NCBI RefSeq assembly: GCF_001005315.1
Contig: NZ_LBMG01000004.1
Coordinates: 124,001-188,000, forward strand
Source: Kordia jejudonensis
GTDB taxonomy: Bacteria; Bacteroidota; Bacteroidia; Flavobacteriales; Flavobacteriaceae
Direction of reading: 5' to 3'
Length of the DNA: 64,000 nucleotides
Shown here: positions 1 to 39,959 of the stretch, one piece after another
How the letters are laid out: every line of letters begins with the position of its first letter
Numbering within the stretch: the first letter of the stretch is position 1
Program-made: the position numbers and the translations under genes
Notes under the pieces: model-generated
Database searches by the model: none
Told to the model about the DNA's origin: nothing
What the model saw: only the letters and a program-made list of their open reading frames with translations

Positions 1-1456
1 GGTAGAAGTTTGTTATTTGTTGAATGATTCGGCGAGTGCATTCTATTACATGGAAAAAAACAAAGCGTTGTTATTACAGGAAAACATCAAAACGTTTCAG
101 GCGAAACTAAACCTAAATGTACCCAAAAATTTGGTAGCACGTGATCATCAATTGCATTACAAAATGTTGGCGTTGCAAGAAGCATCTCAGCAACATACAG
201 AAGATGAAGCATGGAAAAAAACATATGCAGAAACACATAAAGAATACGAGCAATTTAAAGATTCTATGCAATCTGAATATCCTGAATACATGAGAACAAA
301 GCAGGAAGTTGCCATTACCTCATTGCACAAAACTCGTACAAGTGTTACACAAAAAAAGGAAGCCTTTGTAGAATACATTTTAAATGAAGCCGATGGTTAC
401 GGAATTTACGTTGATTCGGAAAAACCAGTATTTTTTAAAATTTCAAATACGCCAAAATTTCAAGAAGAACTGCAAATAATATCTTCGTTGATGACCAAAC
501 GTTTGTTGTCTGATGAAGAGTTGATCACGTATAAAAAAGTAGCACACAGTATCTTTACACAACTATTTCCGTTTGAAAATGCTGTAGAACGCTTGAAAGG
601 TAAAAAACTTACCGTCGTAGCCGATCAACAATTGCAATATGTGCCTTTTGAAATTTTACGCATACAAAATGACGGCGATTTGGCAAAACATTATCTCGTA
701 AACAATACGGAAATAGTGTATTTACAATCTTTTTCACTATTTGAACAAATTCAGAAAAAGCAAAATTCGCCAGCGCAAAAACTGTTAACCATTGCACCAC
801 AAGAATTTAAAAATCCACAATTGCCCAATTTAACAGGAACGGAAAAAATGTTGCAATTGGTAAAGGACATTGACAAATCGGTCATTCTTACAAAACAAGA
901 AGCATCGAAAGCAAATTTCATAGCAAAACAAAATGACTTTGAAATCATGCACTTCAACACACACGCAGGTTTAGACAGTCTCACACAAAAGCCTTGGATC
1001 TCATTTTACGAAGAAAAAATGACACTTGCGGAACTCTTTGGCTTGGAAAATCAGGCAGATTTGGTCATTTTAGATGCATGTCAAACAAACGATGGAATCA
1101 ATCTTTCTGGTGAAGGTGTTATCAACCTTTCAAGAGGTTTCTTTTACAATGGTACGCAAAGTGTCATGGCTTCTCTTTGGAATGTAAATGAACAAGCTGG
1201 AAACGAACTCTTACAAACCTTTTATCGTGAACTCACACAAGGAACAACAAAATCGAAAGCGTTACAAATAGCCAAAAAAGAGTACTTGCAAAAGCATCAG
1301 TTTTCACAAAATACGCCGTACTATTGGGCAGCTTTTACGCTCACAGGAAGTACCAATGCTGTGGAATTTCAATCAACTTCGTATACAATATACATCTTAT
1401 TCGGCATCATAATTATTATCGTTTTTGGAAGCTATATATGGCTCAGAAAGCGGTAA
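1..1456 (+). CDS. TPR-CHAT (caspase-like) membrane protein, 5' end outside the window
   Basis: The reading frame is open from base 2, with no stop upstream of the first possible start (TTG at 17), so the gene begins before the window. The visible part is an alpha-helical, TPR-like region (about residues 1-140 counted from base 17) followed by a CHAT domain, the caspase/HetF-type cysteine peptidase fold. The likely catalytic pair is His316 in the NTHAG motif and Cys355 in LDACQTN. The last 24 residues form one transmembrane helix with a basic tail (LRKR). By analogy with the complete homologue at 29415-32213, which has a signal peptide, the TPR and CHAT parts probably lie in the periplasm. The two genes downstream on the same strand encode a beta-roll protein and a T9SS-sorted protein, echoing the second CHAT locus. 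Substrate unknown. Confidence 0.88.
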   Translation, partial: VEVCYLLNDSASAFYYMEKNKALLLQENIKTFQAKLNLNVPKNLVARDHQLHYKMLALQEASQQHTEDEAWKKTYAETHKEYEQFKDSMQSEYPEYMRTKQEVAITSLHKTRTSVTQKKEAFVEYILNEADGYGIYVDSEKPVFFKISNTPKFQEELQIISSLMTKRLLSDEELITYKKVAHSIFTQLFPFENAVERLKGKKLTVVADQQLQYVPFEILRIQNDGDLAKHYLVNNTEIVYLQSFSLFEQIQKKQNSPAQKLLTIAPQEFKNPQLPNLTGTEKMLQLVKDIDKSVILTKQEASKANFIAKQNDFEIMHFNTHAGLDSLTQKPWISFYEEKMTLAELFGLENQADLVILDACQTNDGINLSGEGVINLSRGFFYNGTQSVMASLWNVNEQAGNELLQTFYRELTQGTTKSKALQIAKKEYLQKHQFSQNTPYYWAAFTLTGSTNAVEFQSTSYTIYILFGIIIIIVFGSYIWLRKR

Positions 1457-1611: not shown

Positions 1612-2712
1612 ATGAAAAACAAACTACACGCAGTAGTCCTTGTCGTAGGACTATTCATTACAACCATCAATTACGCACAACCAAATTGGGGAACTAATAC
1701 CTTAGATCCTACTTCATCTGCTTTTGGTGACGGAAATATCGTAAATGGTAGAAATTCAACAGCAGTTGGAACGGGAAATGTTATGAATTTAAGTTCTACA
1801 GATGCTGGATTCATGGCAGGGCGTAACAATAATGTAGACAAAGATTATTCATTCGCTTTTGGACTCTCAAATATAGTATCAGGGACACAATCAGGAGCTT
1901 TCGGAACTAATAACAATGTAAGTGGTTTAAACGCTTTTAGTTTTGGTCATAGCAACAAATCTACAGCGCCACATTCATTCACTTTCGGAAGAAATACACA
2001 AGCAAACGGAACATTTTCATTTACTTTCGGACAAGATATTGTAAATACTAAAAACTATTCGTTTCTCATTGGATTTGATGCGAATCAACCAGTATTTTCA
2101 GCTACAAAAGATACTACTATCGGAGCAAAAGTTGGTATCGGAACCGATAATCCTGAGGCACGTTTTGATGTGCGTTTGGGTGATAAACAAGAAATTAGAA
2201 TTCAACCAGAAGTTCCAAATACATATGGAGGAATTTCTTTTAAACACAGCGATGGAAGCGAAAACTGGAGAATCAGAGCTTTTAGCAACTTTCATGGCGG
2301 TTACGGAAACATTTTGAGTATTGTAAGTTCTAACAAAGACAACTTATGGATTTCTGCTGGAAAAACCATGATTGGCGATTGGTTTGACTTTGATCCATGT
2401 GAAGATTGTGATGATTATGAACTATTTGTAAAAAAAGGAATTCGTACACAAAAAATAAAAGTAGATGTGGCGGCTGGTGTTTGGGCAGATTATGTATTTG
2501 CGAAAAATTACAACTTAAAACCGCTAGAAGAAGTTGAAACATTCATCAACGAAAATGGTCATTTGCCAAATATTCCATCTGCGGAAGAAGTAGAAAGTGA
2601 AGGATTGAATTTAGGCGAAATAGATGCAAAACTTTTAGAAAAAATTGAAGAACTTACCTTGTATGTAATTGAATTAAAAAAGGAAATCAATGAATTAAAG
2701 AAGATAAAATAA
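1612..2712 (+). CDS. Secreted beta-roll (YadA-head-like) repeat protein
   Basis: 366 residues with a clear Sec signal peptide (MKNKLHAVV...NYAQ). Residues about 30-150 contain repeats of roughly 14 residues with the pattern G-x-x-N-x-x-x-G-x-x-S-x-A-F-G (for example SFAFGLSNIVSG and GAFGTNNNVSG), like the left-handed beta-roll of trimeric autotransporter heads. The C-terminal third carries the module common in Bacteroidota surface or tail-fibre-like proteins (KPLEEVETFINENGHLPNIPSAEEV) and ends in a coiled coil (residues about 340-366), which suggests trimerisation. It is encoded between a CHAT protein and a T9SS-sorted hydrolase and ends 18 bases before the latter, so the two are probably co-transcribed. 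A role as a surface filament or adhesin is inferred from the repeats; the partner is unknown. Confidence 0.75.
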   Translation: MKNKLHAVVLVVGLFITTINYAQPNWGTNTLDPTSSAFGDGNIVNGRNSTAVGTGNVMNLSSTDAGFMAGRNNNVDKDYSFAFGLSNIVSGTQSGAFGTNNNVSGLNAFSFGHSNKSTAPHSFTFGRNTQANGTFSFTFGQDIVNTKNYSFLIGFDANQPVFSATKDTTIGAKVGIGTDNPEARFDVRLGDKQEIRIQPEVPNTYGGISFKHSDGSENWRIRAFSNFHGGYGNILSIVSSNKDNLWISAGKTMIGDWFDFDPCEDCDDYELFVKKGIRTQKIKVDVAAGVWADYVFAKNYNLKPLEEVETFINENGHLPNIPSAEEVESEGLNLGEIDAKLLEKIEELTLYVIELKKEINELKKIK

Positions 2713-2730: not shown

Positions 2731-5550
2731 ATGAAAATTTATACCAAACATATATGTGCGTTGCTATTTTTGATCGCGCAGATAAGTTGGTCACAAAATA
2801 ATGCACCTGCAACGCATGACGAATTAAATCAGCGTGTATTTGGAAATATTATTCCACATTGTGATACCAATTTTTTACTCAATCTGAGTAACGCACAATC
2901 GTCTATATTTCAACTAGGCGGACAAACATCGGGACAACAGCAAAACCGAACAGCAAGCGACTGGATTTTAGCATACAACGATTTGTACTTATCCAATCTA
3001 TCACAGCAAAACCCGTATGAACCTCTCGCGAATTATTATACAGAGATGGCAAAAAACAGACATCAAGAAGATGGCGATATCATCAAAATTCCGATCGGTG
3101 TATTATTTACAACATACAATTTTGTCGATGTTGAAACGGCACTTGCGCAGCAAAAACTAACTGTAGCGTCTGATGGTTACAAACTAAAATTGAATGCGAA
3201 TCCGCAACAAGTAATTCAAAAGGAAACTGTATTTGCGGCAAACATTCTAGCAGACGAACTATCTGTATATGAAACGGTTCGTGTTTCGTTAGAAAATCAA
3301 TACAACATCTCACAAGAACAGATTCAAAGTATAGAAATCATACAAAATGGTGTTTCTTTAGGAATTCTCGGGAACGGAAGTTATGTAGACATACAACTAA
3401 ATGTTGGTGTAAATAACTTTACCGTAAAATACACATCACAACTCGGAAATCTATTTACAGATAACTTTACATTGATTGGAAAAGGATTGCCGTCACTTAC
3501 ATCATCAAGTGCATTTTCAATTTCAAACATATTGAGTACAGGAGCTGAAACGTTTACGAACAGTAACATGTATGGACAAAGTCAAAAAGCAGAAATCAAA
3601 GTATTTTACGGCTGTAATAACAAGCAAAGAGTACTTACAAAACCTGCCATCATGGTAATGGGTTACAATCCATTAAACATTGAAAATTTCATTACGTTAG
3701 TTACAAAGTACAATACCAACGGCTATTTGGACGAACTACATCAGCGAAATTTTGATGTCATTGTAATCAGGTTTGGCTATGGCGCAGATCGTATTGAAAA
3801 TCAAGCATTGTTGGTAAAAGACATTGTCAAAACGATCAATCAGCGAAAATTTAACAATGGTTCGTACATTGAGAATCACATTACAGGGTATAGTTCGGGC
3901 GCTTTGGTAGCAAGAATGGCGTTAAAAATGATGGAAACAGATTACAGTGCGACTCCAATTGTGGACAATTTGCATCATTCTCGGTTGTTAATTTCCTATG
4001 ATGGAGAACACAAAGGCGCAAACATTCCACTGGCGGCGCAACATTCGTTGGTAAGTATTTTGGAAAATCCACAATGGTATTTACCAGCTACTGACGTTTT
4101 AGGATTACTAGAGCAGTATTTCTTTATCAGTTCGCCATTGGCAAAAGATTTCTTAATCTATCATTATACGCAAACAGGAGATGCAGGAAGTCCAACACAA
4201 GCGCCACATCCGTTTTTTGTTGACTCTCGCCACAAACTTTCATCAGATTATTACTATCAACCAGCTCCGTATGACAAACCTGGAAGCTATCCAATTCTTC
4301 GAAACATTGGTGTTTCGGACGGTGCGGACAGACCTGAAGATTCCAATCATGTCATTGGTACCTTACCTGATAATGCAACGATGCTTGAAATAGACAAACA
4401 CGTAGGTTTTTGGGGCTGGGACAGACACAACTTTATGGAATGGCGTCCTGTTGATGGAGCTGGACATATGGTTTTTAGACGATTTTTTAGAAAAAAGCCA
4501 ATATTTTCAGGCGATTGGGCGTACAATGTATTACTCGATGAAGAAAAGCATGTAAACGCAACTTCTTGGAACACAGATGGCGTACAAGGAAGTCATGTAG
4601 GCATTTATAATATTCTTAGAAATTTTACGAAAGCTACGTTTTTACAATTCAGTCCAGCAGTAGATATTGAATCAACAGATTGTTTTCTACCAACATCAAG
4701 TGCATTAGACATTAATGTAGTAAGTCAATTTGAATACGATTTACGAGCAAACAATTTACTTCCTGAAACGGCAAGTTCGCAAACAACACAATTTGGTTAT
4801 CCTTCTATCAGTCATGGTTCGGGTCAATATGCCATTACACCTTTCGATGCAGTTTATGCAGCAGAAATTGATGTAAAACATGGCGCAGGTTCGGAAGATG
4901 ATCCAGAAACTCCATTACTAACAGAATTTATGCTCGATGAAACGCATTACGATGACATTTGGTTGCAATTTTTAAGAGTTGGACATTTCGCTGGCGGATC
5001 GTATAACTTTTATCCAGTAAAATACGAAGCAGTCACGTCGATTGCTACTGGTGAAAATGTAACGATAAAAACACAAAAAAAGCCATTCATTGTATTGCCA
5101 GAAGCGGATGTGGAAATGAAAGCAGGAGAAACAATCACCTTTGAACCTGGTACAGAAATTCAATTTGGTGCCGAATTGATCGCTTATATTGCTCCTGTAG
5201 ACGAATGTGGAGAAGGAAAAATGATGCAAAGTGGAGGCGATCGTGGTAATTCAAATCAAAATTATGATGAAATTATCAAAAAAGAGGAAACTTTGGCTGT
5301 TACTGATGAACAAGCACTAACACTCTATCCAAATCCTTCTAACAATGAAACTACAATTTATATCAAAGATTTTGATGCAAAAACCAGTTATCAAATTGAA
5401 TTGTATAACATTCAAGGAATACCACAGTTACAACTAAAAACAACTACGCAAAAAACGATGGTAAACCTACAGCAATTGGCTATAGGAATATATGTGGTAA
5501 AAGTTTCTAACGGAAACAATTCATACACCACAAAATTGGTTAAACAATAA
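2731..5550 (+). CDS. T9SS-sorted alpha/beta-hydrolase-like protein
   Basis: 939 residues. An N-terminal signal peptide (ending near ISWSQ) and a C-terminal type A sorting domain (LTLYPNPSNNE... to TTKLVKQ) show export by type IX secretion to the cell surface or medium. The middle (residues about 300-460) looks like an alpha/beta-hydrolase or lipase: PAIMVMGYNP, then VIVIRFGYG, then a nucleophile elbow GYSSG with Ser388, then a DGEHKGANIP segment. Acidic and histidine partners are probable but not pinned. The C-terminal 150 residues before the sorting signal contain a short beta-rich segment (ITFEPGTEIQFGAELIAYIAP) typical of T9SS cargo. It follows the beta-roll gene by 18 bases. The lipid or ester substrate is unknown. 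Confidence 0.72.
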   Translation: MKIYTKHICALLFLIAQISWSQNNAPATHDELNQRVFGNIIPHCDTNFLLNLSNAQSSIFQLGGQTSGQQQNRTASDWILAYNDLYLSNLSQQNPYEPLANYYTEMAKNRHQEDGDIIKIPIGVLFTTYNFVDVETALAQQKLTVASDGYKLKLNANPQQVIQKETVFAANILADELSVYETVRVSLENQYNISQEQIQSIEIIQNGVSLGILGNGSYVDIQLNVGVNNFTVKYTSQLGNLFTDNFTLIGKGLPSLTSSSAFSISNILSTGAETFTNSNMYGQSQKAEIKVFYGCNNKQRVLTKPAIMVMGYNPLNIENFITLVTKYNTNGYLDELHQRNFDVIVIRFGYGADRIENQALLVKDIVKTINQRKFNNGSYIENHITGYSSGALVARMALKMMETDYSATPIVDNLHHSRLLISYDGEHKGANIPLAAQHSLVSILENPQWYLPATDVLGLLEQYFFISSPLAKDFLIYHYTQTGDAGSPTQAPHPFFVDSRHKLSSDYYYQPAPYDKPGSYPILRNIGVSDGADRPEDSNHVIGTLPDNATMLEIDKHVGFWGWDRHNFMEWRPVDGAGHMVFRRFFRKKPIFSGDWAYNVLLDEEKHVNATSWNTDGVQGSHVGIYNILRNFTKATFLQFSPAVDIESTDCFLPTSSALDINVVSQFEYDLRANNLLPETASSQTTQFGYPSISHGSGQYAITPFDAVYAAEIDVKHGAGSEDDPETPLLTEFMLDETHYDDIWLQFLRVGHFAGGSYNFYPVKYEAVTSIATGENVTIKTQKKPFIVLPEADVEMKAGETITFEPGTEIQFGAELIAYIAPVDECGEGKMMQSGGDRGNSNQNYDEIIKKEETLAVTDEQALTLYPNPSNNETTIYIKDFDAKTSYQIELYNIQGIPQLQLKTTTQKTMVNLQQLAIGIYVVKVSNGNNSYTTKLVKQ

Positions 5551-11602: not shown

Positions 11603-11708
11603 TTTTTGAATTGAAAGTAATTTGATTCGTTAAATTTTTAAAAAAGAATGGCGAAATAATGAAGTTTGATCTTTTAGAATCAACAATGGTTTTTGCGAGT
11701 AGAAGAAT

Positions 11709-24337: not shown

Positions 24338-24399
24338 GAGTTTTTGATTTATAAATTATAGTAAGAATTAGTGTTCTGTAATTTTATAAGTTGTCAATG

Positions 24400-24567: not shown

Positions 24568-24603
24568 AATTTTTATGTTTTAGATTCACTTAAAAATTTT
24601 GTC

Positions 24604-24885: not shown

Positions 24886-24909
24886 GAGTTTAAGTTTTAA
24901 AAAAAATGA

Positions 24910-29414: not shown

Positions 29415-32213
29415 TTAAAACAATTTCAATGTGTTTGTTTTCAATCGCGATCGGACGATAAATCCAATAATCAACAGTAAAATAAATGCAATGATGCAGA
29501 TAAAATTATTGGGTGAGTCTTTTTCTAGCAGAATAGGAGTGATATCGCCATGCAATACAAATCCTGCCCAATAGAATGGCATTTGGAAATTGGCATCATC
29601 GGTATCTTTTAAATATTTAATTTTAGCATTGCGAAGTGCCATTGTTTTGCTTTCTCCTTTTTTGAGATTTTGGTAGAAATCAACCATGATTCCTTGTGTT
29701 ACTTTATCCGGAACTTCCCATAAACTCGCTAAAGTAGAAGGAACGCCAGCCATTGTAAATGCTCGGTTTAGTGAAACCATTCCTTGTGAAGCGTCCAACG
29801 AACCTTTTCCTGTGTTGCAAGCGCTTAATACTGCTAAATCTGCGTGTAAATGCAAGCCGTATAATTCTTCAATATATAATTTGGAATCTTGATTTTTTTC
29901 ATTGAATAGTAAGTGACTCAACTCAGGCGTTTCGTTGTCAATATTGGCATGCATTGCCAAGTGAATAATTTTTGCCTTTGGCGAATATTTGATAAAGTTG
30001 TCTTTTGTTGCCAATATCGATTCAAAAAGTGTACTTGGGAAAATAGTAGAAAGCAGTTCCGATTCTTTTTCGGCACCTAACAAACGGAAATTTTGATCGC
30101 GAAAAGCAATTTCATCTGTACTTGCTATTTTGTCTGTATAGGTTGGTGTAAATACAAGTATGTTTTCATTTTTGACGTTTGTACGTGCGTCAACATTGTC
30201 ATGAACAAATACCAAATGCGTTGCATAATGAATAGACACATCTTCAATGAGATATTTTACATTTGGCGTTACCAACGTTTCAAAAGGAATGTAATGCAAT
30301 ACATCGTCAGGAATGATGGTGTATTCGGTAATTGCATCATCATTCATAGGAAGTAGTTTTTGATGTAACACTCTTGCCAATACTTTATCTTCATGCTGAT
30401 TGCTCAGTTGAGAATAAAAATTTTCTATGGACGGAACTAAGGATTCGTCGTTGTTTTCAACTTCGTAAAAATCAATTGCAGTTTTTGTAATGTAGAAGGC
30501 ATAAAATTGATTTTCAATTCTTTTGTATTTCACAATTGCTTTCGTGTCGCTCAATTGTGCCTGAATTGTTTGTATGTCAAAGTTTTCAAACGCAAACGCA
30601 GAAATGTATGGAAATTCACTTTGTAATGTTTCTAAAAGCGATGCTAATTGTGAAGTGTTTTCAAAAATTGCGGCTTTGTCTTTTTGTTTTCGCGCCAGCA
30701 CCAATTGTCTTCGTATCAAGCGTTCTTTTTCTAAAAGATCATCAGAGATAGTTAGCGTATTTAGCAATCTACTTTGTTGAAATTGTTTCCATACCAAACG
30801 ATTTTCAATGACTTCCATTGTGTTTAGAAGTTTTTCTAAATTGAAATCTTGATAGCCATAACCGAGTTTTTTCAGTTTTAAAATTCCGCCAATTGCTGTT
30901 TCGTAATAGTTTGTAAGTTTCGTATTGAAGGTTTCTTCACGATAGCAATTTTCAAATTGATTCAATCCTAATTTGTACATGTTTGCCGCAAACGCAAGTA
31001 CAGTTGAATCTTTTGGATATCGTTGTACAATCGTAGTTGCCATTTCGACCAATAAACCAGTTTCATTGATATCAAAGCTCGGTGTAAAGTTAGAAAAGTC
31101 ATTTTTCAACGCAATTGTGTCCTTGTGAATGTATCCAATTGATTTTTGTAATGCTTCTAGTGCTTCCGTTTTATTATTTAGCGCCAATAATATATTTGCT
31201 TTTTCCGCTTCAAAATAGGAGAGACGTGTGTCATTTTTAGACAATTGTTTTAATACAGAATTTAGTAATCGCAAGGCTTTGTTGTACTTTTTTTGAAGTT
31301 TGTATGCTTTTACTTTGTTAAACTGAAATTGCGGTTTGTGATTGGCAAGAAAATCCTTTGGAACTACTTTTAATGCTTTGTCTAGTGCTGAAAGTGCCTT
31401 GTTGTAATCAGCCGTTGTACTTTGTTTATTTCGCAAATACGCATCGCCTAAAAAGTTTAAGGAAACCGCATACATCCGTTGTTCGGCAGCATTAAATTTT
31501 CGCTGTCGCTGTATGGTTTCTAAATGTTGAATCTGTTGTTGGATTAATGTAATATCATACGTGTTGATCACGGTTTTACTTTGGATAATTTCAATGGCTT
31601 TGTAGGCAAACAATATAGGTTTTGAAGCTTCTTCAGCAGTTACAACCATTTCATTTTTATGTTCAGTGTATACTTTTTTAGCTTTGGTTAGATAGTTGTT
31701 AGCTTCTTTTTGAAATCCTAACGCGGCGGCACTTGCTGCAACATCGGCGTAAATGGAAAGTAAATAATCGTAATTTGGATTTTTGACAGTATTCATCAAC
31801 AATGCTGCTTCTTTTGAGCTTTCGTGTGCATACAAGTAATCGCCTAATTCATATTGTGAAAAAGCACGTTCATATAACAATTCTGCTTTATAATTTGTGC
31901 CTTTATCAGTATTTGGACACAGCTGAATTCCAGCATTGTAAGAGTTGATAGAAGCTACAAAGCGTTGCAAATAATATTCGGATGCGCCTTTGTAAAAGTA
32001 CAATCTGGCAACAGCCAAACTATCCGAATGTATAGTTGCATCCGTAAGTGTATCAATTGCTTTTTCACTAAGTTCTAATGATTTTTGATAGTTTCCCGCG
32101 TTGTAAATTGTTTCCGTTTGGTTTAGAAAAGAATGTACTGTTTCCTGCGCATAAAGTAAAGCATGCGAGAATGTTATGAATAAAATAATAATACAACGTA
32201 TAATTTTTTTCAC
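29415..32213 (-). CDS. TPR-CHAT (caspase-like) protein with signal peptide and C-terminal anchor
   Basis: 932 residues. Signal peptide (CIIILFITFSHALLYAQ), then an array of TPR repeats (residues about 30-380: AGNYQKSLELSEKAIDTL, KAYKLQKKYNKALRLLNSVL and others), a helical linker, and a C-terminal CHAT peptidase domain (residues about 600-890). The catalytic pair is His755 (HLAMHAN) and Cys799 (LSACNTGKG), both present. A membrane helix (NFICIIAFILLLIIGF) and a basic tail end the protein. This places TPR and CHAT in the periplasm, tethered to the inner membrane. It is encoded next to surface-type proteins and close to an ECF sigma/anti-sigma pair. Substrate unknown; cleavage of the TPR anti-sigma factor is a testable idea. 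Confidence 0.9.
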   Translation of the reverse strand: MKKIIRCIIILFITFSHALLYAQETVHSFLNQTETIYNAGNYQKSLELSEKAIDTLTDATIHSDSLAVARLYFYKGASEYYLQRFVASINSYNAGIQLCPNTDKGTNYKAELLYERAFSQYELGDYLYAHESSKEAALLMNTVKNPNYDYLLSIYADVAASAAALGFQKEANNYLTKAKKVYTEHKNEMVVTAEEASKPILFAYKAIEIIQSKTVINTYDITLIQQQIQHLETIQRQRKFNAAEQRMYAVSLNFLGDAYLRNKQSTTADYNKALSALDKALKVVPKDFLANHKPQFQFNKVKAYKLQKKYNKALRLLNSVLKQLSKNDTRLSYFEAEKANILLALNNKTEALEALQKSIGYIHKDTIALKNDFSNFTPSFDINETGLLVEMATTIVQRYPKDSTVLAFAANMYKLGLNQFENCYREETFNTKLTNYYETAIGGILKLKKLGYGYQDFNLEKLLNTMEVIENRLVWKQFQQSRLLNTLTISDDLLEKERLIRRQLVLARKQKDKAAIFENTSQLASLLETLQSEFPYISAFAFENFDIQTIQAQLSDTKAIVKYKRIENQFYAFYITKTAIDFYEVENNDESLVPSIENFYSQLSNQHEDKVLARVLHQKLLPMNDDAITEYTIIPDDVLHYIPFETLVTPNVKYLIEDVSIHYATHLVFVHDNVDARTNVKNENILVFTPTYTDKIASTDEIAFRDQNFRLLGAEKESELLSTIFPSTLFESILATKDNFIKYSPKAKIIHLAMHANIDNETPELSHLLFNEKNQDSKLYIEELYGLHLHADLAVLSACNTGKGSLDASQGMVSLNRAFTMAGVPSTLASLWEVPDKVTQGIMVDFYQNLKKGESKTMALRNAKIKYLKDTDDANFQMPFYWAGFVLHGDITPILLEKDSPNNFICIIAFILLLIIGFIVRSRLKTNTLKLF

Positions 32214-32413
32214 AAAGTTGGTTATTTTAGGGAATCTTCTTCAATTTACATATTCTTTCACAAATATTGAATAGATACTTTATGAGATTACGCTATTTAT
32301 GTATGAAATGCGTTATTTTGTTTGTGAATGGTTTTGTGTTCATTATAGATTTAAACCATTTATATATGTAACAACTAGCCACTTGAAAATCAGACATATT
32401 TGAAATTTTACGT

Positions 32414-33379
32414 TTAGTTTTCGGGTAATTGTTCTTGTATTTGATAGGTAGTAAAGTTTAAAAAATTCCCTGGATGTGCTAATACATTTTGAAGAATGAT
32501 GGGAGAATCTGGCTCGTTTCCTGTATACTGCGTTTTTCCATCCATATTGACATCATGAATGTTGTATCCGTTGACTACGTATGTTGGAAAGTTAAGAAAA
32601 TTGCCAGCGTCATTTAGCACTTCTGATAAAATACTAGGAATATCTGGCGTAGTGCCCGAATATTGAATGGTTGTATCTCCATTCACATTTCCAGTCCAGA
32701 GAGCCATGACATTGCTTGCTAATAGTACTTGCGCATGCGATCCAAAAGTTACAAATGAATTATCTGTAAAATTAACGGTAGTTGTCACATCTTTAACTAA
32801 CGTAATTGGGGTTGCAGACATAGCACCTAAATGATTGCGATGTTTGATAACTACATGATGATTGCCTGGTGACGCATTCAATAGTACGGTTGATGTTCCA
32901 TCTAATGCCACTACATCTCCGTCGCGTTGCAATAAGGCAGATGTAGATGCAATTACTTTTGTGGGATCATTTTCTGATCTTAATTCGATCCAAATCCAAT
33001 CGACAATTGCATCAGTTCCAGTCGTATCAAATACAGAAGCATTTACAGTAGCATTATCTCCGTATGGACTTGTGGTTGGTATATAACTATTTGAACGTAA
33101 AATATCATTCATTAAACCTACAGTTGTTGGATTTAATAATGGACCTTGTAAAAAGACAATCGGACTTATTTTAATGTTAAATTTTGCATTGATAAAACCT
33201 TCTGAAACATGTATAGTTCCTTCGTGTTCTTTCGTGAACGTTTCTCCCAAACTATAGACGATTCGTAAGTTTCCAGCAGTATTAGTATCGCCACCGCTAT
33301 CAATACTACTTTTTAAAAGTTGTTGTCCAGAAGTACAGAAGCAAACAAAAAATATAGAAATATAGATGATGTTTTTCAT
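32414..33379 (-). CDS. Secreted repeat protein with dockerin-like C-terminal segments
   Basis: 321 residues from ATG 33379, which opens a signal peptide (MKNIIYISIFFVCFCTSGQQ); ATG 33388 is possible. It starts LLKSSIDSGGDTNTAGNLRIVYSLGE, a domain often found in T9SS-related flavobacterial proteins, followed by a beta-sandwich. The C-terminus has two similar halves, WTGNVNGDTTIQYSGTTPDIPSIL and HDVNMDGKTQYTGNEPDSPIIL, each with a D/N-x-N-x-D-G pattern like a calcium-binding dockerin loop and each ending in a GNFLNF segment. It lies 10 bases downstream of the beta-roll gene and 200 bases upstream of the CHAT gene. A surface role is inferred. Confidence 0.7.
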   Translation of the reverse strand: MKNIIYISIFFVCFCTSGQQLLKSSIDSGGDTNTAGNLRIVYSLGETFTKEHEGTIHVSEGFINAKFNIKISPIVFLQGPLLNPTTVGLMNDILRSNSYIPTTSPYGDNATVNASVFDTTGTDAIVDWIWIELRSENDPTKVIASTSALLQRDGDVVALDGTSTVLLNASPGNHHVVIKHRNHLGAMSATPITLVKDVTTTVNFTDNSFVTFGSHAQVLLASNVMALWTGNVNGDTTIQYSGTTPDIPSILSEVLNDAGNFLNFPTYVVNGYNIHDVNMDGKTQYTGNEPDSPIILQNVLAHPGNFLNFTTYQIQEQLPEN

Positions 33380-33389
33380 GAGAAGCATG

Positions 33390-35168
33390 TTAATTTTCTT
33401 GATATTGAATTTGTACTGAACGAATATTTGTAAGTGGTGCATCCCAATTTTGTCCACTTCGAGGAATTACTCTAAAAATGTATATATTATTTGCATTGTC
33501 AACAACTTCAGACAGTCCTGTAATTACTTGTATTCTGTTGCTGCTAACATTTCCAGAAGTGTTATACAAACCTAAAGGATAAATTATATTGTCTGTGCTA
33601 GCTGGAATACGATACAAAACACATTGCAGATTTGTATTTGTAGAATTGTCCAAATATGTAATAGTATATCCCGTAATTGTAGCGCCATCGGGTAAATGAA
33701 CAGGAGCTATAATTGCTTTTTCAGGTGTGGAGTCCGAAATGTTTACAAAGAGAAAACTTCGATTTAATTGCGTACTCGAAGCACTTGCTTCAAAATCATA
33801 CGGACCCATGGTATAATTTTTAGTACTTGTAGTACTTGCAACCAAATCGCCAGTAGCCGTAACTTTTACATTTCGCGTTCCCGTTCCTGATAAAGCATCA
33901 ATATTTACAGTTCCATTTTGCATTACTTTTAAAGCGGTTGTTCTGAATTCTGCACTAAAAGGTCCTATATAACCATTTCCCACCATAAATAAGGCATTCG
34001 CATCATCTTCATTGAGTCGTCCTACAGCAACTGAGTTGGTTCCTGAAGCAATTGTGTTGGTTCCCGTTGCCACAGAATTGTCTCCCGAAGCGATGGTATT
34101 GTAGCCAAAAGCAACAGAATTTGTACCAACATTGGCATCATTCCAATAGGAAGAATTAAAAAATCCTGCATCGGTTGTTCCAGATCGTAAAGCAGCTTTA
34201 CTTTTGTCAAAAAACAATCGTGAATCATCATTTGTCGTCGAAAAATCGTTTTCAAATTGATTGGAGCCTACAATAATACTTCCATTGGTTTTTACCACAA
34301 AGGCATTTTGACGTTCGGTATCGCTAGTTCCATTCCCTACAATGAGCGAAGCACTGCTATCTTCTTTATTAAACGTACCATTTACAAACTGACTTGAATT
34401 GTTTGATTTGGTACCAACACCAACCACCAAAGATGCATAACCGCTTGCAATGGTTCCGTCGCCCAAAGCGGTAGCATACGAAATTAATGCTTGTGTGTCT
34501 TTACCAAAAGCAGTCGTACCAACGCCACTTGCTCTAGTATTTCTTCCTGCTGCAAACGAATACAAACCGCGACTGCCATCATTCCACTGTACGCCATCTA
34601 CTGTGCCAGCTCTAAATGCTGCTTTCGATTTGTCAAAAAATAATCGTGCATCTAAATTGATATTATTTTCATCTTCTGTACTTGTACTTCCTACCACAAA
34701 ATCGGCAACTGTGTTTGTAGCGCTGATTCTGTTTGGAATTGCTTCTGAAAAAGGACTCATTTCACCAGTGGCACTGACAGTTTCAGCATGTAACGCATAC
34801 GGAACCGTTTTAAATTCGGTTGTACCAAAATCGACCAAACCACTTCCTGTATTTATTTCTGTTTTGACAAAATGTGTGTCAAATCCCCAATTGATAGTTT
34901 GAAAATCTCCAGAAATATTCACGCCTTTACCAATGTTTACAATCACAATTCCGTTTGTATCCGTAGTAGTTGTGTGTGATTCTTTATATACTTCATTCGT
35001 CGCCATATTTCCTTCCAAAATGGTAAATTGAATGGTAACCGCTTGATTTGCCAACGGAAGTCCGCTATTATCTGTTATCACGGCTTTGTAATTGATACCG
35101 CGTGTTTGTGAAAATGAACTTATGACGCAGAAAAAAATCAGGATAAGAAGTGAAAATCGTGTTTTCAT
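33390..35168 (-). CDS. Secreted beta-roll (YadA-head-like) protein
   Basis: 592 residues from ATG 35168, with signal peptide MKTRFSLLILIFFCVISSFSQ. Residues about 20-140 form an N-terminal beta domain (RGINYKAVITDNSGLPLANQAVTIQFTIL) common in flavobacterial tail-fibre-like proteins. Residues about 220-390 hold repeats with S/T-x-A-S-G and V/A-A-x-G patterns (NSVATGTNTIASGTNSVAVG), a left-handed beta-roll like trimeric autotransporter heads. The C-terminal part is a beta-sandwich (TMGPYDFEASASSTQLNRSF). It sits 7 bases downstream of the T9SS ELWKTDGT gene, so it is co-transcribed. It parallels the smaller beta-roll gene next to the first CHAT gene at 1612. Confidence 0.75.
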   Translation of the reverse strand: MKTRFSLLILIFFCVISSFSQTRGINYKAVITDNSGLPLANQAVTIQFTILEGNMATNEVYKESHTTTTDTNGIVIVNIGKGVNISGDFQTINWGFDTHFVKTEINTGSGLVDFGTTEFKTVPYALHAETVSATGEMSPFSEAIPNRISATNTVADFVVGSTSTEDENNINLDARLFFDKSKAAFRAGTVDGVQWNDGSRGLYSFAAGRNTRASGVGTTAFGKDTQALISYATALGDGTIASGYASLVVGVGTKSNNSSQFVNGTFNKEDSSASLIVGNGTSDTERQNAFVVKTNGSIIVGSNQFENDFSTTNDDSRLFFDKSKAALRSGTTDAGFFNSSYWNDANVGTNSVAFGYNTIASGDNSVATGTNTIASGTNSVAVGRLNEDDANALFMVGNGYIGPFSAEFRTTALKVMQNGTVNIDALSGTGTRNVKVTATGDLVASTTSTKNYTMGPYDFEASASSTQLNRSFLFVNISDSTPEKAIIAPVHLPDGATITGYTITYLDNSTNTNLQCVLYRIPASTDNIIYPLGLYNTSGNVSSNRIQVITGLSEVVDNANNIYIFRVIPRSGQNWDAPLTNIRSVQIQYQEN

Positions 35169-35175
35169 TGGTACG

Positions 35176-36837
35176 TTAGTTTTTAAGTAATTTAAAGGTT
35201 TTTGTATGAGTTTTGGAAGCAATATTAACTACGTACATTCCTGTGTTCATTGTTGAAACATCAATCAGCGATTGCGAATTTTTCAAGTTTCCTTTTGTGA
35301 TCAAATTTCCTAATACATCATAAATTTCGTAGCGAAATGATTCCTGCATACCAGAAAAGCGAATCCTGTTTGATGTAGGATTTGGATACATTTGTATAGC
35401 AGTTGTTTCAAAATTTGTAGTACTCAAAACGCTTGCATCTGTGAGACTTGTCAGTTCGTTTCCGTTTCCAGATTTTGTGCCAGCAAACCAAAGTTTGTTT
35501 TGATATTCAAGAAGTGAGAAAGAGGAAATTAGTAAAATTTCTTCCGAGTTTCCTGTCAGCACTTCTGTTCCCGCAGGTGTTCCGTTGGTAACCCACAATT
35601 GTTGTGAATCAAAATAGAAGAGTTTGTTAGCATACACAACCGCTTTTAAAAATTCTATAGATTCTCCTGTGTCAGTTGCCGAAATTACTTTGACTGTTCC
35701 ACTTTCGGTTCCGTCGGTTTTCCACAATTCAAAATCAGAAGTGCTATTGTCAGAAGCGGCAAAGTACAATTCGTTATTATAAATGGTAAAGTTCGGAATG
35801 CCCAAGCCGCTCGCAAGATTGTCCGTATCAATATCTTTGACCAAACTTGCCGTAGTTCCATCGGTTTTCCAAAGTTCCGAACCAATGATTTGTCCTGATG
35901 TTCCGTTGTAGCTTCGAGCTTTAAAATAGAGTTCGTTATTAAAAATGGTCAAATACGAAGGATTGCTTCCTAAACCAAATGCAGGATTCAGATTATTAGG
36001 GAAAATATCGTGTTTTATCGTTGTTCCTGCAAAGGTTCCGTCGGTTTTCCACAATTCGCGACCTTCAGGCGAAGTATTATCTTCAGCAACAAAAAGCAAT
36101 TCGTTATTAAACACAATCATTTCTGAAATTAAATTCAAATTACTTCGTACCAATACTGTATTCGCAGTTGTTCCGTCGGTTTTCCACAATTCGCCATTTC
36201 CGCCACGATTTACATAAAAATATAACAATCCGTTATACACAACACCTAAGATATTTTTCCCAGGTTTTGTCATAAATGTTGGTGCGCCGTTGGTAGCAGC
36301 TTCAAAGTTTTTTACGGAAACTGTTCCAACTTCGGTTCCGTCTGTTTTCCAAAGTTCTATAGACGAATTGGTGCTTCCGCGGAAATATAATTCTCCATTG
36401 TATTCTACAAATAGTTGATTGTCATCATTCGAATTAAAATCCAAACCACTTGACGAACCTGTTCTGATATCTTTCAGCAAAACCGTTCCTGCATCGGTTC
36501 CGTCGGTTTTGTATAATTCTTGTCCAATACCAGAAACAAACGCTGAAAAATATAGTTCGCCATTCATTACATAAAACGATTCGGGCGAATATCCTGCGCC
36601 ACTATTTAGGTTTGTAGCAACAATTTGTGTTCCTGCGGCAGTTCCGTCACTTTTGTATAGTTTTTTAAATGAAGGTGTAATTTCGGAAGCCTGAAAGTAC
36701 AATTGTCCATTTAATTCCGTGAGGTATTTTGGCGCACTTCCGTTGCTTCCTGCCCAAATATCAATTTGATCAAACGTATATTGTGCATGTATTTGAAATG
36801 CTGTACATAGTAAAATTGTGAGTAGTATTTTTTTCAT
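35176..36837 (-). CDS. T9SS-sorted protein with ELWKTDGT repeats
   Basis: 553 residues from ATG 36837, which opens a signal peptide (MKKILLTILLCTAFQIHAQ). It contains eight repeats of about 50 residues marked by E-L-W-K-T-D-G-T-x-x-G-T (the first is KLYKSDGTAAGT, the last QLWVTNGTPAGT), alternating with NNELYFxA segments. This looks like a beta-propeller. The C-terminus is a type A T9SS sorting signal (MYPNPTSNRIRFSG to KTFKLLKN). The product should reach the cell surface. It lies between a small secreted protein gene (19-base gap) and the beta-roll gene (7-base gap). Ligand unknown. Confidence 0.82.
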   Translation of the reverse strand: MKKILLTILLCTAFQIHAQYTFDQIDIWAGSNGSAPKYLTELNGQLYFQASEITPSFKKLYKSDGTAAGTQIVATNLNSGAGYSPESFYVMNGELYFSAFVSGIGQELYKTDGTDAGTVLLKDIRTGSSSGLDFNSNDDNQLFVEYNGELYFRGSTNSSIELWKTDGTEVGTVSVKNFEAATNGAPTFMTKPGKNILGVVYNGLLYFYVNRGGNGELWKTDGTTANTVLVRSNLNLISEMIVFNNELLFVAEDNTSPEGRELWKTDGTFAGTTIKHDIFPNNLNPAFGLGSNPSYLTIFNNELYFKARSYNGTSGQIIGSELWKTDGTTASLVKDIDTDNLASGLGIPNFTIYNNELYFAASDNSTSDFELWKTDGTESGTVKVISATDTGESIEFLKAVVYANKLFYFDSQQLWVTNGTPAGTEVLTGNSEEILLISSFSLLEYQNKLWFAGTKSGNGNELTSLTDASVLSTTNFETTAIQMYPNPTSNRIRFSGMQESFRYEIYDVLGNLITKGNLKNSQSLIDVSTMNTGMYVVNIASKTHTKTFKLLKN

Positions 36838-36856
36838 ACTTGTTTTGATTAGCATA

Positions 36857-37408
36857 TTATTTTCTTCGTGATTCGTTTACGGCAAATTCAACTTTTACAT
36901 TGGTTGTTATTGTTTTTTCAGAACCGTCATCCATACGAATTCTGAGTGTGGCAGTATCTTCAAAATTGCCTGAAACGGTTCTTCGTTTTTTAACAATTCC
37001 TTCGTTCCAATTGCTCACATTTGTAATATTTGTAGTGGTACAACCAGTAAAATCGCCATCAATACGTTTGTAACTTTTACTATTGTTGAGGTCAATAAAG
37101 TTGATGCTTCCACAACCTTGCATACTTTCTTTCGGTTGATGCGTTCCTTTGGAAGCTTCGCCCATGAAATACCGATTGATGTAATGAATTTGAAAACCGT
37201 CTGCCGTCATCAATTTTGAAGCATTTACATTGCATGCGCCTTCAAAAAATTCAATGTTTGCCTGACTTGCAAAGTTTCCCTTTTCAGGATAAAATGTGTG
37301 TGTTCCTTTTAACGGGCCATCACTAAATGTTACCGTAATGAAATGTTTTTTGTTAGTGGTAAAACAGAATGCAGTTAGAATGCATATGCATAAGAATAGT
37401 TTTTTCAT
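36857..37408 (-). CDS. Small secreted protein, function unknown
   Basis: 183 residues with an N-terminal signal (MKKLFLCICILTAFCFT). The body begins HFITVTFSDGPLKGTHTFYPEKG and contains four cysteines after the signal. The central part (GEASKGTHQPKESMQGCGSINF) and the C-terminal strand-rich part (RTVSGNFEDTATLRIRMDDG) suggest a beta-sandwich. No family recognised. It lies in the surface-protein operon, 10 bases after DUF4412 and 19 bases before the T9SS gene. Confidence 0.68.
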   Translation of the reverse strand: MKKLFLCICILTAFCFTTNKKHFITVTFSDGPLKGTHTFYPEKGNFASQANIEFFEGACNVNASKLMTADGFQIHYINRYFMGEASKGTHQPKESMQGCGSINFIDLNNSKSYKRIDGDFTGCTTTNITNVSNWNEGIVKKRRTVSGNFEDTATLRIRMDDGSEKTITTNVKVEFAVNESRRK

Positions 37409-37418
37409 GAGTTTGTTT

Positions 37419-38186
37419 TTACATTGATGTATAGGCGTTCGCGTCTATTTTTACATTTATATTTGTATCTAGTTTGACAACTTTTATGGAACTTTTTTCA
37501 TTGTTACTTTCAAACCGTAATTCCATCACAAAACCTTCAAATGGACCGTTTTCTTTCATGCCTAAAATTGGTATAAACTTTCCTTGGATTGGAAAATTTT
37601 TGGTTACCCAAGCGTGTACTTTTCCACCTTCATTTTCATAGAAATATTCGTAACAGGTATACCCAAGAATCGTTTTCGTTTTTCCTGTTTTGACCAGCTC
37701 ACTTTTTTGTGGCACTTTTGAGGTATAATCAATAGTTCCCATTTCTTCTTTAGAAACTTTTTTCTTGATTTTCATGCCAGGCATATTCATAAACATGGTG
37801 CTTGAATTTGGCGTAATAACAGCGTACACTTCTCCGCTTGAAGCATCTTGTTCAGTGTTCAATTTCATGCAAATGATGTTTGAATTTTTCTTGTCAAATA
37901 GAAAATCGAGCTGAGCTTTTTCGTTTCCTTCAGCTTCTATTTCAATGGTAATACTTTGATTAAAAGTGTATGAATTTGCAGTGTTTTCGGCATTTATAGC
38001 AGGTTTCTTTTTCTTGCCTAACATGTTGTCAAGCATTTTATCAGCTGCTTTTTCAGCTTCTTCCATCGCTTTTTGTTCTGCTTTGTTTTCTACTTTTTCC
38101 TGAATGCGTTTTAAGAGTTGCGCATGGCTTATTTGACACGCAAAAAATAGCATCACACACAAACTGATTTTAAAAATTGGTTTCAT
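37419..38186 (-). CDS. DUF4412 family secreted protein
   Basis: 255 residues with a signal peptide (MKPIFKISLCVMLFFACQISHAQ), then a charged, helix-forming stretch rich in Glu, Lys and Ala (ERIQEKVENKAEQKAMEEAEKAADKMLDN), then a beta-rich DUF4412 domain with the family-type segment GKTKTILGYTCYEYFYENEGGKVHAWVT. DUF4412 proteins have a lipoprotein-carrier-like fold and are periplasmic; their ligands are unknown. It is the first gene of the minus-strand surface-protein operon and diverges from the ECF sigma gene; 111 bases with an inverted repeat lie between them. Confidence 0.8.
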   Translation of the reverse strand: MKPIFKISLCVMLFFACQISHAQLLKRIQEKVENKAEQKAMEEAEKAADKMLDNMLGKKKKPAINAENTANSYTFNQSITIEIEAEGNEKAQLDFLFDKKNSNIICMKLNTEQDASSGEVYAVITPNSSTMFMNMPGMKIKKKVSKEEMGTIDYTSKVPQKSELVKTGKTKTILGYTCYEYFYENEGGKVHAWVTKNFPIQGKFIPILGMKENGPFEGFVMELRFESNNEKSSIKVVKLDTNINVKIDANAYTSM

Positions 38187-38227
38187 TGTTATTAGGTTTC
38201 ATTTCCTCTTTATATATTTACGAAGGA

Positions 38228-38278
38228 AAAGGTTAACACGTCAGTGAAATAAAATTTTAAATCGTAGTGTTAACCTTT
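38228..38278. promoter_or_regulatory. Perfect 12-bp inverted repeat in the divergent sigma/DUF4412 promoter
   Basis: Arms AAAGGTTAACAC (38228-38239) and GTGTTAACCTTT (38267-38278), 27-base spacer. On each strand the same 12-mer GTGTTAACCTTT points toward a start: 19 bases before the sigma gene (plus) and 41 bases before DUF4412 (minus). It could be two copies of a promoter element or one large operator, coordinating both operons. Confidence 0.6.
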
Positions 38279-38297
38279 CGTTTTGAGTTCAGACTAA

Positions 38298-38837
38298 ATG
38301 GAAAAGCAACACGTAGATTTACAAACCCGATTGCGCAGTGATGATAAAAAGGCGCTAGAAGAAGTGTATCTCAATTACAAAGAAGCTTTTGTGAGTTACG
38401 GACTGCGTTTTCGTTTGGATCGTGAAGATTTGATTGATGTGTATCAAGATAGTGTGATTGCGATGTATCAGAATTTCATTCAAAAACAAACACAGTTGGA
38501 CGACAGTAGTTTAAAAACCTATTTGTTTAGTATTGGGAAACATAAAATTTACGATCGTTTAAGAGAACGAAAACAATTGGTTGGTGCCGTTGAACAGGAA
38601 GATGATTATGAAGAAATTGTGTTCACAGAAACCGTTTTATCTGAAGAACAACAACAGTTGCGAAAGTATTTTGGGCATTTGGGCGAAAGTTGCCAGCATA
38701 TTTTACGTTTGTTCTATTATCGTGGTTTGAGTATTAAAGAAATTGTGTCGCAAACGCACTATAAAGATGAAAATACAGTAAAGAGTCATAAATCAAGGTG
38801 TTTGAAGAAATTGATAACACTGATTAAGAACGATTGA
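38298..38837 (+). CDS. ECF-type RNA polymerase sigma factor
   Basis: 179 residues. Region 2 (LRFRLDREDLIDVYQDSVIAMYQNF, residues about 35-65) binds core polymerase and -10 DNA; region 4 (SCQHILRLFYYRGLSIKEIVSQTHYKDENTVKSHKSRCLKKL, residues about 130-172) is the -35 helix-turn-helix. No extra domain. The next gene starts 3 bases after its stop and encodes a membrane protein with an anti-sigma-like N-terminus, the usual sigma/anti-sigma pair. The inverted repeat at 38228-38278 precedes it, so it may activate its own promoter and that of the divergent surface-protein operon. Confidence 0.9.
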   Translation: MEKQHVDLQTRLRSDDKKALEEVYLNYKEAFVSYGLRFRLDREDLIDVYQDSVIAMYQNFIQKQTQLDDSSLKTYLFSIGKHKIYDRLRERKQLVGAVEQEDDYEEIVFTETVLSEEQQQLRKYFGHLGESCQHILRLFYYRGLSIKEIVSQTHYKDENTVKSHKSRCLKKLITLIKND

Positions 38838-38840
38838 CAG

Positions 38841-39578
38841 ATGGATACAGACGAATTGATTCAAAAATACATACACGGAAGTTTAAGCGAAACCGAACAG
38901 CAACAGTTTGATACGTTGCTTGCTACGGATCCTGAGTTTGCAAACGCTGTGGCGGAATATGAAAACATTCATGCTGCTATCACTTCGCATGAAAAAGACG
39001 ATTTAAAAGCACAATTACAACAGTTAGAAACTACTTCCGAAACGACAAATGCGGCTAAACCTTCTCGAAACTATAAACGTTTGGCAATTGCAATTGTATT
39101 GTTGTTATTTTTTGGTTTGCTTGGAAATTACATCATTCAACAAGCAAATACGAATGAAACATTGTATGCAACTTATTTTGAACCGTATCCGAATGCGTTG
39201 CAACCTGTAACTCGTGGGCCAAGTGATGGAAAACTTCTTACGGAAGCTACGAGAGCATATGAAGCTAAAAATTACGAAGAAGCGATTAAAACTTTCGATT
39301 TGATACAAGCAGGATTTGACAATCCGAATACAGAAATTTCATTTTACAAAGCGATGAGTTTGCTCAATTTAGGAAAAGAAAAAGAAGCTTTGGCTATTCT
39401 TCGCGAAATAAAACATCGTAAAACACGATTTACACCACAAATTTATTGGTATGGCGCGCTTATTCACATAAAACTTGATGAAAAAGAAAAGGCATTAAAA
39501 GCGTTGGAATATATGAAAACGATGAATTTTTCTTTTAAAATCAAGGAAAGAGACGCTTTATTGGCAAAATTACAATAG
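38841..39578 (+). CDS. Membrane TPR protein, probable anti-sigma factor
   Basis: 245 residues. Residues 1-50 resemble the anti-sigma N-terminal domain of Bacteroidota (DELIQKYIHGSLSETEQQQFDTLLATDPEFANAVAEY). A single membrane helix spans about 81-100 (LAIAIVLLLFFGLLGNYIIQ). The periplasmic part starts with TLYATYFEPYPN, a sequence typical of this family, then has two or three TPR repeats (EAKNYEEAIKTFDLIQAG, ISFYKAMSLLNLGKEKEALAILREI). It is translationally close to the sigma gene (3-base gap). The inferred role is holding the sigma factor at the membrane and sensing a periplasmic partner, perhaps the TPR-CHAT protein. Confidence 0.75.
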   Translation: MDTDELIQKYIHGSLSETEQQQFDTLLATDPEFANAVAEYENIHAAITSHEKDDLKAQLQQLETTSETTNAAKPSRNYKRLAIAIVLLLFFGLLGNYIIQQANTNETLYATYFEPYPNALQPVTRGPSDGKLLTEATRAYEAKNYEEAIKTFDLIQAGFDNPNTEISFYKAMSLLNLGKEKEALAILREIKHRKTRFTPQIYWYGALIHIKLDEKEKALKALEYMKTMNFSFKIKERDALLAKLQ

Positions 39579-39689: not shown

Positions 39690-39719
39690 TTGTAATGGTT
39701 TGATTATGAGGTAGTTTTG
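39690..39719 (+). promoter_or_regulatory. Full Bacteroidota consensus promoter of the solo peptide gene
   Basis: TTG (39690-39692), 19-base spacer, TAGTTTTG (39712-39719), matching TTG-N17-20-TAnnTTTG. Transcription should start near 39726, giving a leader of about 24 bases before ATG 39750. Confidence 0.75.
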
Positions 39720-39749
39720 ATTCAATGTTTAACCACAAAATATACTATT

Positions 39750-39959
39750 ATGAAAAAAAAGAATTTCAGAAGTTTATCGCTTAACAAAAAATCAATTTCA
39801 GTATTATCAACAGATGCAGCAAAAGGTGGATCATCAAGACCTCCAGTTGGACAATCAGTAGATCAGACTTGTACAGGTATGGCATCTTGCGGAAATTGTA
39901 CAGTAGATTGTTCTACAAATCCTTATGAAAGTATCTTTTTGTGCAACATGGATAAATAA
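39750..39959 (+). CDS. RiPP precursor peptide, LNKxSIS leader (69 aa)
   Basis: 69 residues from ATG 39750, chosen because the leader MKKKNFRSLSLNKKSISVL begins there and because the promoter at 39690-39719 would leave an earlier ATG (39717) untranscribed. A Gly-Gly site (DAAKGG, residues about 22-27) precedes a core with five cysteines (QTCTGMASCGNCTVDC, then FLCNMDK). It is solitary. It is followed by a long inverted repeat like that after the gene at 19212. No modification enzymes are near. Confidence 0.78.
   Translation: MKKKNFRSLSLNKKSISVLSTDAAKGGSSRPPVGQSVDQTCTGMASCGNCTVDCSTNPYESIFLCNMDK

Follow-up and report, generated by a model that had tools for sequence, protein, structure and literature searches.

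A predicted periplasmic CHAT protease encoded with an ECF sigma factor and a putative TPR anti-sigma factor: a proposed proteolytic sigma switch in Kordia jejudonensis and other Bacteroidota

A 64,000-nucleotide stretch of the Kordia jejudonensis genome (contig NZ_LBMG01000004.1, positions 124,001 to 188,000; hereafter the window, numbered from its first letter) carries a gene group in which a protease combining tetratricopeptide repeats (TPRs) with a CHAT domain is encoded beside an extracytoplasmic function (ECF) sigma factor and a predicted TPR-containing anti-sigma factor (Table 1). The association of these three genes, which recurs within this genome and across others, is firm. All open reading frames (ORFs) listed in a first-pass annotation of this DNA were found at their positions, and so was the row of surface-type genes that it had seen running divergently from sigma, namely those for DUF4412, ELWxxDGT/T9SS (type IX secretion system), YadA-head, 183-aa and 347-aa proteins and CHAT, all on the minus strand. 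Two more genes (28507-29337 and 27485-28432) lie close behind CHAT on the same strand, and the extent of what we call the divergent operon is presumptive.

The protease matches the CHAT family above threshold (PF12770, 188.3 bits against a cut-off of 24, E 2.8e-55) and also carries TPRs; its nearest named relative, at 59% identity, comes from a Kordia sp. (L011). The catalytic residues His755 and Cys799, described as intact in the first-pass annotation, are both present, are invariant across the five CHAT paralogues of this genome, and are kept in every ungapped row of an alignment of 124 CHAT/anti-sigma pairs. A hydrophobic N-terminus and a C-terminal helix (901-931) with a basic tail point to a membrane-tethered, exported protein, and related proteins share this layout: among the 80 full-length of 97 CHAT ORFs in 80 named loci, hydropathy alone identifies a C-terminal transmembrane (TM) segment in 79 and a signal-like hydrophobic N-terminus in 68. 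An AlphaFold2 model built from 65 sequences (pLDDT 88.9) accordingly displays a signal helix, a TPR array, a CHAT fold and the C-terminal helix. CHAT is thus predicted to be periplasmic and tethered to the inner membrane with its dyad intact, as first proposed, a prediction that speaks against a cytosolic or inactive protein. A search of PDB with the full-length protein returned TPR and designed TPR proteins, with no CHAT protein among the best 60 of 95 matches, and PADLOC reported nothing for either the window CHAT or sigma.

The sigma factor exceeds the cut-off of the ECF model TIGR02937 (63 bits; cut-off 42.9) and of PF04542, while region-4 models stay below theirs. It is followed, as the earlier reading had it, by a membrane protein with one predicted TM helix and TPRs, whose match to the NCBIfam "anti-sigma factor" family NF052375 is sub-threshold (30.5 bits, E 3.5e-7; cut-off 100). 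An AlphaFold2 model of this protein (60 sequences, pLDDT 90.5) consists of three N-terminal helices, the TM helix (78-101), a short helix, a coil (113-130) and the TPRs. Among its relatives, a TM segment is seen by hydropathy in 46 of 51, zf-HC2 is found in 2 of 60, and 151 of 170 are encoded directly after a sigma gene. The anti-sigma assignment, which rests on gene order, topology and the sub-threshold family match, is a prediction, and this counts as a reservation about the proposed switch. From hydropathy and the modelled topologies, large parts of both CHAT and the anti-sigma would face the periplasm.

Table 1. Features of the CHAT/sigma/anti-sigma locus and of the second module at the window edge (window coordinates)
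Feature	Position	Strand	Basis
TPR-CHAT protease, 932 aa: signal peptide, TPR helices ~26-541, CHAT ~558-890, C-terminal TM helix 901-931 (predicted)	29415..32213	-	ORF, Pfam, AlphaFold2 model
Catalytic Cys799 codon	29817..29819	-	C in 123/123 ungapped rows
Catalytic His755 codon	29949..29951	-	H in 124/124 rows; invariant in own CHATs
Glu717 codon, candidate S1-pocket residue	30063..30065	-	covaries with anti-sigma linker residue
Secreted-type protein (by eye), 347 aa, no Pfam family above cut-off	32414..33457	-	ORF, divergent operon
YadA-head surface-type protein	33390..35222	-	PF05658, E 1.3e-13
ELWxxDGT repeat protein with T9SS sorting domain	35176..36855	-	family matches
Small exported-type protein (by eye), 183 aa	36857..37408	-	ORF
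DUF4412 protein, first gene of the operon on the divergent side	37419..38186	-	Pfam
Promoter-like element TGTTAACCTTT, points to divergent operon	38228..38238	-	motif search
Promoter-like element TGTTAACCTTT, points to sigma	38268..38278	+	motif search
ECF sigma factor, 179 aa	38298..38837	+	TIGR02937, PF04542
Predicted TPR anti-sigma factor, 245 aa: cytosolic helices 3-67, TM 78-101, linker 113-130, periplasmic TPRs 131-244	38841..39578	+	model, sub-threshold family match
Arg125 codon, predicted P1 in periplasmic linker	39213..39215	+	conservation, covariation
Second module's CHAT; gene start, subtilase, sigma and anti-sigma upstream of window (stretch L009)	2..1456	+	ORF, neighbouring DNA
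Second module's YadA-head protein	1612..2712	+	Pfam
Second module's T9SS-sorted protein	2731..5550	+	family match

The genome as a whole (5.36 Mb in 217 contigs) encodes five CHAT proteins, and all five genes lie divergent from an ECF sigma gene that is followed by a TPR anti-sigma-like gene. A profile built from those same five sigmas has 20 matches in the genome (E ≤0.001), headed by the five CHAT-linked ones (E ≤2.5e-65; next 5.2e-14), and the 22 matches of an anti-sigma profile are likewise headed by the five CHAT-linked ones (next 1.8e-8). Since all five CHATs are so placed while the genome holds 20 sigma-profile matches, the arrangement is not a matter of chance. One of the five modules had been described as a partial copy at 1-5550 of the window; it is actually complete and cut only by the window edge, the adjoining DNA (stretch L009) carrying its anti-sigma (7907-8728, minus strand), sigma (8713-9369, minus), subtilase (9355-10710, plus) and whole CHAT gene (10716-13457, plus). 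A subtilase (Peptidase_S8) stands between sigma and CHAT in one more of the five (L007:4777-6093), and both subtilase-carrying modules have Lys at the linker position predicted below to be P1.

Co-occurrence across genomes, which the first-pass annotation had put forward as a check on its reading, is strong. Within the host's order (119 genomes), some anti-sigma match at E ≤1e-8 is found in 54 genomes, mostly TPR-only in long frames; reading by hand kept 25 matches (at least 91 bits, frames of 231-279 aa), and TPR-only matches outside such frames were discarded, among them that of G004 (81.8 bits in a 480-aa frame). A strong anti-sigma match occurs in 13/13 genomes with CHAT versus 1/106 of the others (Fisher p 1.8e-16), and a hand count by coordinates placed CHAT no more than 9 kb away, on the same contig, for 22 of the 25 kept anti-sigmas. 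Across 345 genomes of the phylum, CHAT (E ≤1e-10) was detected in 168, the anti-sigma (E ≤1e-15) in 79 and both in 71 (hand count), so that CHAT accompanies 71/79 genomes with the anti-sigma versus 97/266 without it (p 4e-18). The pair was also found in two metagenome-assembled genomes that by title fall outside Bacteroidota, one from Thermoanaerobaculia (L063) and one from a Chlorobiota bacterium (L044). The association has exceptions, which count against the switch proposed below: eight genomes of the phylum have the anti-sigma and no CHAT at E 1e-10, and of the named CHAT loci, taken as the best 80 among 563 relatives, 54 include the anti-sigma and 26 lack one of 150-360 aa. Nine of these 26 are on contigs shorter than 8 kb, one of them with a 90-aa fragment.

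Over all loci, 180 anti-sigma matches were collected, of which 5 of odd length were left out and the 5 from K. jejudonensis were added to the pairs separately; six of 120 stretches centred on an anti-sigma gave none of 150-360 aa. Of the resulting 170 anti-sigmas in this size range, 119 share their fetched stretch with a CHAT gene, which in 67 cases is within 300 bp; 119 of 170 is not a prevalence because some stretches were chosen for missing CHAT (eleven anti-sigma-centred ones were picked for a missing or distant CHAT) and many are short. The 119 pairs are convergent (47), divergent (32), ordered sigma, anti-sigma, CHAT on one strand (28), or have CHAT upstream on the same strand (12), and the fact that linkage is kept while orientation changes argues for a functional tie.

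These arrangements bear on the possibility that CHAT is only an output, in which case the sigma would drive a surface programme, CHAT would act on other substrates such as secreted proteins, and another protease would cut the anti-sigma. CHAT does stand in the divergent row here, two of the genome's own modules have a subtilase in that row, and the eight CHAT-less genomes possess the anti-sigma. However, in 75 of the 119 pairs CHAT is not part of the divergent row but stands convergent with the anti-sigma or downstream of it, the anti-sigma linker and CHAT show reciprocal best covariation (see below), and the sigma gene is seemingly gone, truncated or fused in three CHAT-less genomes (L131, L132, L133). 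We consider this output-only role unlikely and favour a CHAT that acts on the anti-sigma itself. Near the anti-sigma in all three lies a divergent aspartyl-protease-type gene, confirmed as Asp_protease_2 in L131 and L132; as replacements for CHAT these are anecdotal. Equally anecdotal is a Peptidase_C14 caspase (L138:13447-14220, E 2.3e-17), which stands some 5 kb away from sigma/anti-sigma and whose genome has no CHAT match at E 1e-10.

Sigma and its divergent neighbour are separated by 111 bp, in which TGTTAACCTTT stands twice, facing outwards; the sigma would thus here drive both itself and the divergent operon. Exact copies of this element are scarce genome-wide, with 5 found versus 29 for a mirror-image control; two of the five are the window pair, and of the remaining three, two fall within ORFs or at an ORF end. 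Of 98 module gaps, 16 hold inverted pairs of related elements that reach p 0.05, with about 5 expected (100 first-order Markov resamplings per gap), and several have a GTTAAC or GTAAAC core. Within K. jejudonensis, the pair is significant for the window module (0.01) and for L006 (0.03), whereas in L009 the sigma gene and its divergent neighbour overlap and leave no gap. Two results count against a promoter role: a search tolerating one mismatch found 4 copies in the window where 3.5 were expected, which is no enrichment, and of the four own modules that have a gap, two are without such a pair (L008, 0.73; L007, no pair).

A candidate site of action on the anti-sigma emerged from conservation. 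In 56 aligned anti-sigmas, the column of R125 holds R in 51, K in 4 and T in 1, and is as conserved as the structural TPR residues, while the residue itself lies in the coil, where model pLDDT is 75 for residues 121-130 between blocks of 95 and 94. Pairing each anti-sigma with the nearest CHAT on its stretch gave 124 pairs, involving 122 distinct CHAT genes, of which 102 are Arg-type, 14 Met-type, 5 Lys-type and 3 other. A pair counts as Met-type here if Met occupies the aligned column or lies no more than 2 residues from it, a definition set after the letters at CHAT position 717 had been seen, and one pair (L144) was moved to this type after the tree had been seen.

Position 717 of CHAT is Glu in all 101 ungapped Arg-type partners and acidic in none of the 13 ungapped Met-type partners; taken strictly by column, the counts are 101/101 and 0/7. 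It ranks first of 351 CHAT columns in separating Arg- from Met-type pairs (1.0; next 0.62), and the reverse scan over 235 anti-sigma columns puts R125 at the top (0.77; next 0.60). The idea of covariation came from the first 88 pairs, and in a batch fetched afterwards (L191-L250) position 717 is acidic in 22/22 Arg-type pairs and non-acidic in 7/7 Met-type pairs plus one gap, with 22/22 and 4/4 agreeing under the strict column definition.

Such a pattern could reflect a lineage effect, with the Met-type modules forming a divergent clade where the change at one residue had nothing to do with the change at the other. Several observations lean that way and against a specificity switch: an approximately unbiased (AU) test does not reject a single Met clade (p 0.175; 41/124 rows), starred branches hold only 1 of the 4 independent Arg/Met pairs counted on all branches, and Glu717 is a general CHAT residue, present in 27 of 29 relatives where no anti-sigma was found. 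As Glu717 is nearly universal among CHAT relatives, what carries the covariation signal is that Met-type lineages have lost it. Yet 35 columns have a single residue group in 95% or more of Arg-type partners, and of these 717 alone is lost from all Met-type partners (the next-most lost, L711 and H751, are kept in 7/14 and 9/14); Glu717 is also retained by all 15 divergent Arg-type partners picked by hand, and the best tree places Met-types in five places. It is not proven that the Met switch arose independently more than once, and we regard a lineage effect as fairly unlikely.

If the covariation is instead that of enzyme and substrate, R125 is the predicted cleavage position, given its conservation and its covariation with CHAT, and Glu717 is a strong lead as the S1 residue. 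Here again some details fit poorly. Two of the five Lys-type CHATs lack an acidic 717 (Met or Ile), and a profile alignment puts Glu717 on Glu548 (letters read by eye) of a TPR-CHAT from Craspase, the CRISPR-linked Csx29/Csx30/CASP-sigma system, whose substrate is reported to be cut after Leu407 (PMC9729208), so that Glu at 717 does not simply equal Arg at P1. The S1 Asp position of separase likewise falls on Q840 of the window CHAT by profile alignment. An initial candidate for a separase-type S1 Asp, D836, was dropped, the alignment placing the separase and Craspase S1 residues (D2151 and K670, as described in PMC9729208) at Q840, which shows no Arg/Met-matched switch. The notion that R125 marks CHAT linkage also proved weak: the set of stretches centred on an anti-sigma has R in 25/32 CHAT-linked anti-sigmas, 15/20 unlinked ones and 3/8 from CHAT-less genomes; the last three look like parts of decaying modules.

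The same residues could instead serve binding without cleavage, with CHAT sensing, pulling or blocking the anti-sigma through TPR-TPR contacts and R125/E717 forming a salt bridge. Both are TPR proteins on the same predicted membrane face, and covariation alone cannot separate binding from cutting. However, a purely binding role sits poorly with the His/Cys dyad kept in all ungapped rows of the 124 pairs, and the linker residue, Arg or Met in a membrane-proximal coil, resembles a P1 residue. Binding without cleavage thus appears very unlikely to us, and it is cleavage of the anti-sigma by CHAT that we compare with known systems.

Craspase is RNA-guided and cytosolic, and its inhibitor is not known to be a membrane protein. 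Here, by contrast, CHAT is predicted to be periplasmic and membrane-anchored, and the TPR anti-sigma spans the membrane. The two systems share a TPR-CHAT protease, an ECF-type sigma and a sigma inhibitor cut by the protease, a cut that is predicted for our module and described for Csx29 acting on Csx30, the inhibitor of an ECF-like sigma (PMC10028731). With the modelled window CHAT as query, Foldseek matched the Craspase TPR-CHAT (E 8.2e-14), DdvA (4.1e-13) and human separase (3.6e-10). The first-pass annotation had proposed a switch of this kind without CRISPR, which for type III holds in this genome: RAMP (PF03787) has no match, hence there is no Cas7-11/gRAMP-type effector with CHAT, and the one Cas1 match lies on contig C184, which carries none of the five CHATs.

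DdvA (PDB 8rot and 8rw5, with profile match 1.5e-8) unites in its entries the title "transmembrane anti-sigma factor" and the molecule name "CHAT domain-containing protein"; by these names it is one protein with anti-sigma and CHAT, unlike the separate genes found here and in all 124 pairs, and our literature search found no paper on its structure. The module also resembles the RseA/DegS/RseP pathway of regulated proteolysis for sigma E (PMC10028731) in having a membrane-spanning anti-sigma of an ECF sigma, a periplasmic first cut (predicted here) and an RseP-like protease in the genome, although the first cut would be made not by DegS but by a caspase-like CHAT enzyme whose gene accompanies the pair. 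For ECF54, carboxypeptidase, subtilase and CHAT proteins in the gene context led to a proposal of proteolytic control without an anti-sigma, according to a review (PMC8999054); judged by that description, our modules differ in having a TPR anti-sigma-like gene after sigma. Separase, whose fold resembles that of the window CHAT, cuts after Arg (PMC9729208), whereas the CHAT described here is bacterial and predicted to be periplasmic, and the S1 Asp position of separase was aligned to it through Craspase. No paper on a periplasmic CHAT/TPR-anti-sigma/ECF module was found in the literature search, most subscription papers being outside its scope.

Other features of these loci touch on lanthipeptides. 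At 39717-39959 (plus strand), 138 bp after the anti-sigma gene, lies a class I lanthipeptide leader-like peptide (NF038153, 21.1 bits, cut-off 22), and in the module on contig C143 (L010:1976-6366, minus strand) genes matching LanC-like, Lant_dehydr_N and Lant_dehydr_C are directly 3' of sigma/anti-sigma on the same strand. Three similar segments stand in tandem at 24257-24898 of the window, and the one at 24604-24885 encodes a small Cys-rich peptide that is lanthipeptide precursor-like by eye and has no family match. Elsewhere in the window are a repeat array with units of about 100-130 bp (43553-44038) between genes 43069-43353 and 44115-44504, and a DUF805b cis-regulatory RNA (18863-18897, minus strand, 41.8 bits).

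Co-occurrence, predicted topology, the intact dyad, linker conservation, the Arg/Glu covariation and the paired element, all computed here, support the CHAT/anti-sigma/sigma switch first suggested for this locus, and we consider it probable that CHAT is the cognate first-cut protease of the anti-sigma, cutting near R125 and thereby freeing sigma. As we infer it, the three proteins would form a module in which, at rest, the cytosolic helices of the anti-sigma hold the ECF sigma. The TPR-CHAT protein would be a caspase/separase-like periplasmic protease, held by its C-terminal helix in the inner membrane and started by a trigger acting on its own long TPR array. It would then cut the 18-residue linker between the membrane helix and the TPRs of the anti-sigma, at or next to Arg125, whose place is taken by Met in a smaller share of systems. 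The remaining stub would be finished by general proteases, RseP-like and cytosolic, and the sigma freed; an RseP-like site-2 protease is encoded in the genome (M50 match, E 1.2e-55). The freed sigma would transcribe itself, the anti-sigma and the divergent surface-protein operon, including the CHAT gene, giving positive feedback.

What is new here is the near-invariant linker Arg of the anti-sigma and its covariation with Glu717 of CHAT. More broadly, and tentatively, at a little under an even chance in our estimation, periplasmic caspase/separase-like proteases may be dedicated first-cut enzymes of widespread Bacteroidota sigma switches with a P1/S1 code that matches Arg to Glu717 and Met to a non-acidic residue, and the CRISPR Csx29/Csx30/sigma cassette and DdvA may be relatives of this system. 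If so, this code would help stop cross-talk among parallel paralogous pathways in one cell, and experiments on the substrates of periplasmic CHAT proteases could be directed at one specified bond for which a change of specificity is predicted. It would also provide periplasmic bacterial CHAT proteases with a physiological substrate beyond CRISPR and gasdermin defence, suggest a possible source of the CRISPR-linked CHAT/sigma cassette, and place caspase-type proteolysis ahead of transcription control across a major phylum.

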